Below are positions 19,732 through 22,660 of a stretch of DNA of 64,000 nt, piece by piece (the stretch's first letter is position 1; every line of letters starts with the position of its first letter). Below the pieces are notes generated by a model that was given only the letters and a program-made list of their open reading frames with translations, searched no databases and had not been told where the DNA came from. The translations under genes were made by a program, and so were the position numbers. The DNA comes from a virus. The stretch is taken from positions 1 through 64,000 of the IMG/VR virus record IMGVR_UViG_3300047552_000880. One strand, given 5' to 3'.

Positions 19732-20759
19732 AATTTAGAGAGTTCCATTGCCTCTGTATAGATTTCTGACATTTTCTTTTTTAACACATCTTTATCATTA
19801 ACCGCAATATCATCAATAACATGCATTAGCATATGATGTGTTCCCTTGAATTCAATTTTTGTATTCAGAGCAGTCTCAACAGATTTCTGCATTTCGGTAT
19901 CAATAATCTGTAATGATAATGGCTGTGTTTGCTGAACACGCTCAATGAACTTGTCGAATTTCTTCTGATCGGTTTTGTTGACCACTGTCACTTTAATATG
20001 ATGTGGATATTCTAGCTCAATATCTGGTACTTCGTTTTCATCATATGAAAATTTGTGATGTAAGGTAAACGGGTTTCGATTGAACTGGTAGCTACCATCA
20101 TCTTTCAGTATAGTGAATCCTTTTGGGTCATTGTAATCAGACCAATCCATTTCATACGGTGTACCAACATAGATAACATTATCTTTCTGGCTCCGCGTGT
20201 GATAGTGACCACTGAAGACTGTTTTGTATTTGGATAGTTTGCTGTGGTCTAATCCATGTTCAGCGATTGTTCCGGGATGTAGAGGAAAATTTGCGAACTC
20301 GAAATGACCGATAGCAACATTAGATTCAGACTCATTTGCGAACTTGAGTGATGCTGGCTCGTTTTCCTCATTGATCCAAGGGTATAAATCGACGTATAAG
20401 CCGTTTTTATTGATTGTATGTGGGTAGGTATCAACCACTGTCATAAAACGCCTCTGAAGCAGTTTTGGTGCGTTTACGCGGTTAGTTGAACGATAGAAGC
20501 TGTCATGGTTTCCGCAGACAACATACAATTCGATATTTCTGGCGTCTAACTGATCAAAAAACATTTCATTTGCTTTCTGAAGCGACAGAAAGTTGACTGA
20601 CTTTCTCTTATCAAAAAGATCGCCTGTCTGAATAATTGTTTTTACGTTATGAAGATCAATGAAGTCGAACAAGTAGTCATAGAATTTCTTCTGGTACTCG
20701 TACATGAAAGGAATATTTTCGCGAATTCCGAAATGTGTATCACCAAGAATAATAATCAT
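19728..20759 (-). CDS. 47: Recombination endonuclease subunit gp47 (Mre11/SbcD-like)
   Basis: A 343-residue metallophosphoesterase-type nuclease. The metal site is read as GDTHFGIRE (residues 6-14), QTGDLFDKR (about 44-52), VCGNHDSFY (about 81-89) and SGHYHTRS (about 185-192). T4 gp47 (339 residues) forms the nuclease of the gp46/gp47 complex. It overlaps gp55 at the start and gp46 at the end, both by 4 bp, consistent with coupled production of the complex. Confidence 0.95.
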   Translation of the reverse strand: MIIILGDTHFGIRENIPFMYEYQKKFYDYLFDFIDLHNVKTIIQTGDLFDKRKSVNFLSLQKANEMFFDQLDARNIELYVVCGNHDSFYRSTNRVNAPKLLQRRFMTVVDTYPHTINKNGLYVDLYPWINEENEPASLKFANESESNVAIGHFEFANFPLHPGTIAEHGLDHSKLSKYKTVFSGHYHTRSQKDNVIYVGTPYEMDWSDYNDPKGFTILKDDGSYQFNRNPFTLHHKFSYDENEVPDIELEYPHHIKVTVVNKTDQKKFDKFIERVQQTQPLSLQIIDTEMQKSVETALNTKIEFKGTHHMLMHVIDDIAVNDKDVLKKKMSEIYTEAMELSKL

Positions 20760-21364
20760 GCTAATAGACTACAAATATCGTTACCGTTGTTCTGTTCTTT
20801 TTGTTTCTTGGCAGTATACGGTGTTTTATTCTTGTGGCGCAGACTTGGATGCAATAAGCCTGTCTGATCTTTTTCTGTGTCTTCGCGAAGGCGATCAACA
20901 AAAATATCATTGTCTTCCAGAAACTCTACGAATGCGTTTCCTACTTCAACGTCGTTGTATATAGATTGCTGAACAAATTCGCTACTGAGTTTCTGTTGAA
21001 TCAATGCTGCCTTGACGGAATGTTCACGTTGCTCGATCTTGATACGAGTGATATATTCGTTCCAACAAATCTGAGAGAAATATGCAAATGGGTTCTCGCC
21101 ACGATTAGGATCAAATCTATCGATCTTGATCATGCACTTGAGAATGGCATCAGAAATCATTTCATCGCGAAAAGAGTAGCCAATGAAATTATAGAGGTTG
21201 CTCATGTTAGTGGCAATTCTGATGATTGCGTTCGCAATGTCGTCCGGGATTACCGGACGTTCTTCATTATTTTCTATTGACAGTTTCAACTCAGACAGAT
21301 AGATGCACATTGCTGCATATAAGTCTTTGTTAGAAACATAATGTGTTGGCTTCAATTCACTCAT
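20756..21364 (-). CDS. 55: Late-transcription sigma factor gp55
   Basis: A 202-residue protein starting MSELKPTHYVSNKDLYAAMC; GCGGAGAAATT before this ATG decides it over the in-frame ATG seven codons earlier. The sigma region-2 like segment is IGYSFRDEMISDAILKCMIK followed by FDPNRGENPFAYFSQICWNE, typical of gp55, which recruits host RNA polymerase to late promoters. T4 gp55 is 185 residues. Two promoter elements precede it, an early-type one and a late-type one, so it may be expressed in both phases. Confidence 0.92.
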   Translation of the reverse strand: MSELKPTHYVSNKDLYAAMCIYLSELKLSIENNEERPVIPDDIANAIIRIATNMSNLYNFIGYSFRDEMISDAILKCMIKIDRFDPNRGENPFAYFSQICWNEYITRIKIEQREHSVKAALIQQKLSSEFVQQSIYNDVEVGNAFVEFLEDNDIFVDRLREDTEKDQTGLLHPSLRHKNKTPYTAKKQKEQNNGNDICSLLA

Positions 21365-21383
21365 AATTTCTCCGCAAAATATC

Positions 21384-21404
21384 ATTATAACACAATTATT
21401 TAAT
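21384..21404 (-). promoter_or_regulatory. Paired late-type and early-type promoter elements before gp55
   Basis: On the minus strand the late-type element ATTAAATA (21404-21397) is followed directly by the extended -10 TGTGTTATAAT (21394-21384). The early start would fall near 21377, 13 bp before the gp55 ATG. A stem of CCGCA (21409-21405) with TGCGG (near 21375-21371) would enclose both. Confidence 0.6.
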
Positions 21405-21960
21405 GCGGTTTCATTTCTCCATAGGGAAAGCAGTAGGGTGAACTATTGGGGAATAACTTCTAGGGATTCTAAGGCTTAGGGGTATCTTTTAATATTAGAT
21501 ACTACTCTTTACTTAGATTAGTCCGAAGGACTGTTGCGTAGCAACCCATAGAACATTCTCAGTTCATTCCTACTTCGAGTATTAGATTACTCTAATACGC
21601 TCTTGACACTTTCCATACTGAGTGTACTTATGTCTCAACTCTAACCCTCTTATCGACCGAGTTTTTATCAGGCTACCTTACGGTCATGCCTGCACAGACT
21701 CCATACCAAGAGTTGCAATCTCTCGGAAACTGTGTATGGTTATCACCCTTTTCAGGAGGTCGTTTGTAGCAATGATTGAGTGAACCAATGCTCCGGCTGC
21801 TTTCCAATTCCCCGGTGGGTCAGTTTATATTCTTACATGCTCATGATGCTTCATGAGGTTTTTACGTGAACCTTTAAACTGTAACTTAAACACGATCCCT
21901 ACTTTGACACGGTGCTAGGATTTGGCATTAAAGTAGATAGTAAGTGTCACTAACCATCTA
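21405..21960 (-). ncRNA. Predicted large structured noncoding RNA, about 550 nt
   Basis: No ORF or ribosome site is present across this stretch, the longest gene-free one in the window. Minus-strand RNA can form: 21933-21961, 21841-21856 (TCATGA-AGCA-TCATGA), 21856-21873, a bulged 12-bp hairpin 21701-21739, 21669-21692 (inner ACC-GTAA-GGT with a GNRA loop), 21579-21598 (8 bp, tetraloop), 21533-21545, 21520-21532 (TTCG loop), 21482-21502. CACAG (21734-21730) and CTGTG (21697-21693) would make a pseudoknot. Two promoter elements lie at the 5' edge. It is comparable in size to GOLLD and ROOL RNAs, but membership is not shown. Confidence 0.65.
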
Positions 21961-21964
21961 CAGT

Positions 21965-21983
21965 TATTTATCATTCTAACACA
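21965..21983 (-). promoter_or_regulatory. Paired early-type and late-type promoter elements before the large RNA
   Basis: The minus strand reads TGTGTTAGAAT (21983-21973), one base from the best extended -10 in the window, then GATAAATA (21972-21965), a good late-type element. Both lie between the gp2-like gene and the hairpin-rich region, so the RNA could be made early and late. CATTCT/AGAATG may also form a hairpin here (21972-21997). Confidence 0.55.
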
Positions 21984-21997
21984 AGAAAATCAGAATG

Positions 21998-22660
21998 TCA
22001 AAACTTTTTTTGTCTTGCTGCATGCATTGTTGCAGAAATTTCTGATACCGCCCATCTGTTGACCTGTGCTTGATGCATTTTCACGAAGTCGCTGTTACTT
22101 AGCATGATGGCTGTCTTCCAGTCTTCGATGGGTATCTGCATGAATCTACTTCTGACATGTGACCATAGATATTGTCTCACGGCTGGTCTAACTTCAGGGA
22201 ACGTAGCAACATTAGACAGATACTGCCAGTTGAGTTTCTGTACCTGCTGCCTTGGATTGTTCCTATTTGCCTTTGCGATTTGCCACATCTTATCAAACAG
22301 TTTTCCTCGAATGATGTACGGCAGAATGTGAAAGTTAATCCCAAAGAACGATTTTGGTGTCACATTGAATATGAAGCTAAGAGGGAACCTGTCATAGAAA
22401 GGCAGAGTATCCTTATGCTTTGGGTCATAGAAGAAGAAATACATACTTCCGGGAAGTACGATATTTTTTTGCAGAGATTTGTGTTGATGAAGAAATTCCT
22501 GTCTCTCTGAGCCATCAAACTTCAGCTTGTTTAGTTTTTCTCGAAACCAATCTACACTTTTTGCTTGATGGAAATTTTTATCCTGCCGAATGATATCAAG
22601 AATCGACATTCCCTCTTGATGATCGATTTTCTTTTTCTGAGGGTTTGATTGTACTTCCAC
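21998..22660 (-). CDS. 2: gp2-like DNA end-protector protein
   Basis: A 220-residue protein. The core PGSMYFFFYDPKHKDTLPFY followed by DRFPLSFIFNV and FFGINFHILPYIIRGKLFD is a block I associate with the T4-superfamily protein annotated as DNA end protector gp2 (YDPKxKxTLPFYDRFPL...GxNFHYL). In T4, gp2 binds packaged DNA ends and blocks RecBCD, and gene 2 lies near gene 4, as here. It begins with GTG, with AGGAATCTAAA as ribosome site. The function is inferred from family memory and synteny. Confidence 0.6.
   Translation of the reverse strand: MEVQSNPQKKKIDHQEGMSILDIIRQDKNFHQAKSVDWFREKLNKLKFDGSERQEFLHQHKSLQKNIVLPGSMYFFFYDPKHKDTLPFYDRFPLSFIFNVTPKSFFGINFHILPYIIRGKLFDKMWQIAKANRNNPRQQVQKLNWQYLSNVATFPEVRPAVRQYLWSHVRSRFMQIPIEDWKTAIMLSNSDFVKMHQAQVNRWAVSEISATMHAARQKKF

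Follow-up and report, generated by a model that had tools for sequence, protein, structure and literature searches.

To our knowledge only a few classes of very large structured RNAs have been described in bacteria and phages, and the role of those found in phages is unknown. Two of these classes, GOLLD and ROOL, usually lie beside tRNA genes, which is a tendency and not a strict rule. ColE1 RNA II, a folded primer precursor similar in length to the RNA described below, is transcribed from a host promoter. The expression of GOLLD has been linked to the lytic cycle, ROOL makes kissing-type contacts and its function is unknown, and OLE, of about 600 nt, forms homo-oligomers (PMC12286853). OLE is bacterial and not a phage RNA (PMC9723947). 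One of the origins of phage T4, ori(uvsY), is started by an R-loop-forming transcript (PMC3016281), and T4 late promoters consist of an 8-bp TATA box (PMC2988020).

The window, as the whole stretch of 64,000 nucleotides analysed is called here, belongs to a T4-like phage; Synechococcus phage BUCT-ZZ01 (Kyanoviridae) is its nearest named relative, with about 41% identity in gp55 and gp2. A fuller record of the same phage, G001, comprises 178,209 bases, with one mismatch in 126 kb and ends overlapping by 127 bases. In the complete G001 only two gene-free gaps exceed 500 bases, one at the gp55 site and the other adjacent to uvsY. The former, flanked by gp2 and gp55, corresponds to positions 21365-21997 of the window and has the characteristics of a structured RNA encoded on the minus strand. 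Its downstream neighbour encodes the late sigma factor gp55 (20756-21364, minus strand), recognized by tblastn to annotated gp55 genes and by a Pfam Sigma70_r2 match below the cut-off; the best start is an ATG near 21364, preceded by GCGGAG. The upstream neighbour is gp2 (21998-22660, minus strand), recognized by tblastn to annotated DNA end protector proteins. The initial annotation had pointed to about 580 bp without an ORF, and this was borne out: the longest ORF between the gp2 stop (21998) and gp55 has 53 aa, a Pfam search of the stretch gave zero matches, and the longest same-strand ORFs across the family members described below range from 26 to 88 aa, with no conserved reading frame. 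There are no tRNA genes in the window, and the two found in G001 are at about 61-62 kb, distant from the RNA at 149 kb.

Folding of the single sequence gave a first view of this stretch. Compared with shuffled sequence the minus strand is more stably folded (z -3.8), although 5 of 88 background windows have a lower folding z, with coding windows among the comparable ones. As comparable energies also occur in coding windows of this phage, the folding energy is suggestive only and was dropped as proof of a structured RNA. The stretch ranks 13th of 395 windows for well-defined pairing. The count of GNRA tetraloops is more telling than the folding energy, since the stretch has two confident ones and at least two are found in only one of 394 other windows. 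The hairpins listed in the initial annotation were recovered and pair with high probability; among their loops are two GUAA tetraloops and one GAAA.

Relatives of the RNA were not found by nucleotide searches with the window RNA against phages and plasmids, nor with the other family members against phages. A gene-neighbour search through relatives of gp55 and gp2 gave no gap holding an RNA of this family, and BUCT-ZZ01, the nearest cultured relative, has no such gap at its gp55/gp2 locus and no match to the RNA. A 17-mer from the GAAA hairpin was discarded as a probe, as its matches outside the phage itself all fall within protein genes, and gapped-pattern matches in bacterial genomes were chance only. 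The first relative, an IMG/VR contig, was reached by a back-translated search using a chance reading frame across the core; it aligns with the window RNA over 441 positions (E 7e-20), and two blocks, of 24 and 21 bases, are identical in both. Patterns built from these two invariant blocks recovered the remaining members, likewise in IMG/VR. The family thus defined has five distinct sequences in four phages, namely the window copy, copies A and B of G011 (a single phage contig of 198 kb), G008 and G009, the last of which is cut off at its 3' end. In an alignment of 448 columns the pairwise identity of the five members is 52-77%, and a core covariance model scores homologues at 148-166 bits. The same model had no match in 12 named T4-like phages, 48 other T4-like contigs and 784 sampled bacterial genomes; distant members may have been missed, because the pattern scans of viral contigs demand exact blocks. 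No earlier description of the family was found in the literature searched, which consisted largely of open-access journal papers.

The five sequences provide the decisive evidence for a structured RNA, which is covariation. With an alignment made from sequence only, RNAalifold predicted 68 pairs, of which 42 show a compensatory change (both sides changed and pairing kept) in at least one sequence. The score was -51.0, against -13.2 (sd 3.3) for column shuffles (z about -11), none of the 100 shuffles falling below -22.2, and the reverse strand scored worse (-44.9). In our own structure, which was drawn on the window sequence and includes a loop-loop pair, two-sided changes affect 37 pairs, while 18.7 would be expected by shuffling; none of 500 shuffles equals this structure on any measure and the signal collapses once the partners are slid. 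In this structure 79% of the cells are paired, a lower bound because hairpins of unequal length in the relatives are misaligned to a structure drawn on the window. Moreover, a covariance model built from the four other sequences retrieves the window with 114 bits (E 9.5e-24), the runner-up having 16.6 bits. Conservation and covariation in related phages, which the initial annotation had named as the check to be made, are hence both present, and it is practically certain that the RNA family is real.

The family member of the window, assigned by homology and covariation, is located at 21425-21966 on the minus strand, as are all the elements that follow. Its 3' end extends at least to 21425, for a total length of about 540-550 nt, and its 5' end would be near 21966 if transcription starts from a host-type promoter or at 21959 if it starts from a late-type one. 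The model of the RNA comprises about 14 helices, one of them a long-range helix that closes the molecule; GNRA loops and a loop-loop contact are present, and the core is conserved. The 5' terminal hairpin P1 (GUAGAUGGUUAGU/ACUUACUAUCUAC, 21933-21961) has a pairing probability of 0.96 and two-sided changes in five of six counted pairs. Its neighbour P2 (21895-21921) has the stem AUCC/GGAU, with two-sided changes in two of four pairs and 90% of the cells paired. P3 (21865-21894), CGUG/CACG in the window, becomes CGCC/GGCG, CGUC/GACG and CGAG/CUCG in relatives, and P4 (21840-21857), a hairpin CUCAUGA-AGCA-UCAUGAG, is fully paired in all five members, each with a different stem. A further stem, UUUAAUGC/GCAUUAAA (21932-21925/21406-21399), is strong in the window fold; it is absent from the relatives and hence not claimed.

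A pseudoknot had been proposed between 21730-21734 and 21693-21697, but these strands form a nested stem, P9, which covaries. By covariation the true loop-loop pairing, kissing or pseudoknot, is predicted to be that of GACAC (21948-21944) with GUGUC (21910-21906), the latter strand being carried by the loop of P2. It is 100% paired in the five sequences, with two-sided changes in four of five pairs, and in relatives it becomes GGUAC/GUACC and UGUGC/GCACA. The long-range helix P5, which is outside the main alignment and was tested apart, joins its 5' strand GGAAAGCAG (21797-21805) to its 3' strand CUGCUUUCC (21433-21425) by nine perfect pairs in the window. The four members with an intact 3' end all have eight or nine perfect pairs in differing sequence, which amounts to three independent versions because those of G011 copies A and B are nearly identical.

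The hairpin P6 (21768-21792) has two-sided changes in five of six counted pairs, and it is followed by two core blocks that are near-identical in all five members. Block 1 (AAACGACCUCCUGAAAAGGGUGAUA, 21741-21765) includes the 5' strand of P7 (CGACC) and the GAAA-loop hairpin P8, in which CCU/AGG becomes CAU/AUG in G008, and block 2 (GAUAAAAACUCGGUCGAUAAG, 21649-21669) includes the 3' strand of P7 (GGUCG). Between them lie P9 (CACAG/CUGUG, 21693-21734; CUCAG/CUGAG and GACAG/CUGUC in relatives), enclosing the hairpin P10 (CCGAGAG/CUCUUGG), and the hairpin P11 (CAGGC/GCCUG, 21669-21692), whose GUAA loop is GCAA in two relatives. Further on, P12 (GACAU/GUGUC, 21605-21634), with two-sided changes in four of five pairs, encloses the invariant letters AGUA and GGAA, which may be a loop-E-like element. 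P13 (GUAUUAGA-GUAA-UCUAAUAC, 21579-21598) has a pairing probability of 0.98 and four different stems in five members. The 3' arm P14 (21432-21574) has the base AGUAGG/CCUACU, which covaries (GUAGGAU/AUCCUAC, GUAUGGU/ACCAUAC and GCAGCAU/AUGCUGC in relatives), and beyond it the window fold gives a variable arm that ends in a four-way junction with two triloop hairpins. P14 and its continuation correspond to the bulged 12-bp stem of the initial annotation, the base of which is conserved while the triloop hairpins of the arm vary.

Two promoter elements had also been reported at the 5' edge of the stretch, and both an early-type and a late-type element are present there as sequence motifs. The host-type promoter TTGACA-N17-TAGAAT (21973-22001) agrees with 11 of 12 consensus positions. 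It is directly followed by the T4-late-type octamer GATAAATA (21965-21972), a motif with seven of eight positions identical to TATAAATA. Both early and late use of these putative promoters is plausible. All members have a TTGAC[A/T]-N16/17-TATAAT-like element immediately before the 5' hairpin. A check of the 3' end of the RNA for an intrinsic terminator was negative.

The family members occupy two sites. At site A, in G011 (copy A) and G008, gp4 and gp55 flank the RNA and share its strand; in the phage of the window gp2 intervenes between gp4 and the RNA. At site B, in G011 (copy B) and G009, it adjoins uvsY and is oriented away from it; these copies lead no gene and are on the strand opposite to their neighbours. 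The identity of UvsY comes from a Pfam match (PF11056) on the gene of the window phage and from homologues 50-55% identical in the relatives. When the window phage is compared with the phages of the other members, the proteins flanking the loci reach only about 41-55% identity, hence both arrangements must be old. The gene order differs among relatives, because in the contig 3300043433_000179 (L003/G002) a gp2 relative with 55% identity is followed by a gene resembling the one before site B of G011; this contig ends before the point where the RNA would start.

The phage of the window has a single recognisable copy of the RNA. Its second gene-free stretch, of about 930 nt, is at the uvsY site (G001:37211-38139, minus strand; L182 17211-18139), where relatives have the site-B RNA; it lies outside the window and partly within the record from which the window was taken. 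It was considered as a second copy, but the core model was negative. On the minus strand it carries TTGACT-N16-TATAGT together with GATAAATA, and it has a long GAAA-loop hairpin whose G-U pairs favour that strand. It also contains direct repeats ACAGAACAGTAGTTTTAAGTGGTACTCGTCACT, two copies and a third partial one, at G001:37890-38060 (L182 17890-18060). In G011 further long gene-poor gaps, up to 2.3 kb, occur at about 68.9-82.7 kb and 195.4-197.7 kb, without a match to the core model. The G009 relative alone has a 354-aa ORF between uvsY and uvsW (G009:4708-5772, minus strand; L471), the start of which resembles by eye a GIY-YIG homing endonuclease. In G001 and G011 the turning point of the cumulative GC skew is close to the gene-strand switch, itself some 3 kb away from site A, the coordinates given with this observation being 37.2 kb and 149.3 kb for G001 and 43.7 kb and 175.6 kb for G011.

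The RNA probably acts in trans as a folded object, because it has its own promoters and some of its copies lead no gene. Near-invariant unpaired blocks combined with freely covarying stems are typical of cases where a three-dimensional fold or a partner-binding surface is selected. As an independent RNA gene, the region would be transcribed from its own host-type promoter into an RNA of about 540 nt, the covarying stems of which would hold the invariant blocks in place. Within the core, the unpaired and almost invariant blocks could then offer a tertiary or partner-binding surface, and the loop-loop contact might either close the molecule or, as in GOLLD and ROOL, link several copies in a multimer. 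Such multimers are speculative for this family, and we hold them to be somewhat doubtful.

Several other explanations were weighed against action in trans. That intergenic or decayed coding DNA folds in this way by chance would agree with the folding energies of some coding windows, but this is effectively excluded by covariation, since conserved and covarying stems are found across diverged phages. The RNA could instead be a leader of the gp55 message that regulates this gene in cis, as the site-A copies are directly before gp55 on the same strand and no intrinsic terminator was seen at the 3' end. This is nevertheless very unlikely, because every copy has its own promoter and the site-B copies share the core but point away from uvsY and precede no gene; moreover, gp55 of G011 and of G008 has its own TTGACA promoter, located after the RNA. 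The opposite strand of the site-B copies relative to their neighbours might suggest that they silence, as antisense RNAs, transcription that reads into uvsY from the gene upstream of it. Such interference would require no covarying fold and does not fit site A, where RNA and neighbours have the same strand, and we consider it highly improbable.

A role as origin RNA is the main rival, although it is also unlikely; the transcripts at uvsY and close to the gene-strand switch would then serve as markers or primers of replication origins. Site B is at uvsY, where T4 has oriF (PMC3016281), and T4 origins tend towards strand switches (PMC3016281), site A being about 3 kb from one. The host-type promoter and the length would be in agreement with a primer precursor such as ColE1 RNA II. 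However, the minimum of the cumulative GC skew is at the strand switch and not at the RNA, and the skew was therefore rejected as support for an origin. In addition, T4 R-loops need no specific RNA sequence (PMC3016281), for which reason an origin RNA fails to explain the near-invariant blocks common to the copies of both sites. A far-diverged GOLLD or ROOL RNA would share with this family its phage origin, a length of about 550 nt, an elaborate fold and kissing-type pairing (PMC12286853), but neither model matches the window or its relatives and the RNA is not beside tRNA genes, which makes such descent very improbable.

The diverged large RNAs at the late-sigma locus (gp55) and the recombination/origin locus (uvsY) could cooperate, or work side by side, when the phage passes from origin-driven to recombination-driven replication and to late transcription; they would do so as origin RNAs or else as an RNA-only particle. 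We regard this proposal as quite unlikely, but if true it would represent a new kind of phage RNA machine. Whatever its role, the RNA adds to the known classes a strongly covarying family of its own, whose two fixed loci are tied to late transcription and to recombination or replication initiation. As the phage is T4-like, a route to genetics would be available if a cultured relative is found. The consensus can also be used to design constructs for cryo-EM, and it should be interesting to ask whether unrelated large phage RNAs share RNA-only assembly.

It had been proposed that the RNA is of the GOLLD or ROOL kind or else belongs to a new class. A large structured noncoding RNA of a new class is what stands, while no link to GOLLD or ROOL was found in Rfam. 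The search with Rfam models, suggested at the same time, was run: no family matches the window or the other members, and cmscan was empty for the window at E<=10 and for the other members at E<=5, ROOL and GOLLD included. The ROOL model (RF03087) had no match in G000 and G001 at E<=10, control genomes being without a match either, and the GOLLD model (RF02032) had none in G001 and reached 7.5 bits in G011, elsewhere in the genome. Judged by its sequence, the RNA is a new family within the kind "large structured phage RNA".

Compared with the known systems, the RNA is similar to ColE1 RNA II in length and in its host-type promoter, and no sequence relation is seen between them. With the T4 ori(uvsY) transcript it shares a place at or near uvsY (PMC3016281); again no sequence relation is seen, and the R-loops of T4 are not sequence-specific. 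OLE is likewise a large ornate RNA (PMC12286853), but it is of bacterial and not phage origin (PMC9723947), and its Rfam model gave no match here. Among known large phage RNAs, those nearest in size and elaboration are ROOL and GOLLD (PMC12286853). GOLLD is a large structured RNA encoded by phages (PMC12286853); the present RNA is shorter, is not beside tRNA genes and has no match to the GOLLD model, whose best score of 7.5 bits falls elsewhere in the genome. ROOL is also phage-encoded, of similar length (574 positions in its model) and elaborately folded with kissing-type contacts (PMC12286853). ROOL forms a homo-oligomeric nanocage. The present RNA differs from ROOL in having no match to its model, in lying outside tRNA islands and in occupying two fixed loci, at gp55 and at uvsY.
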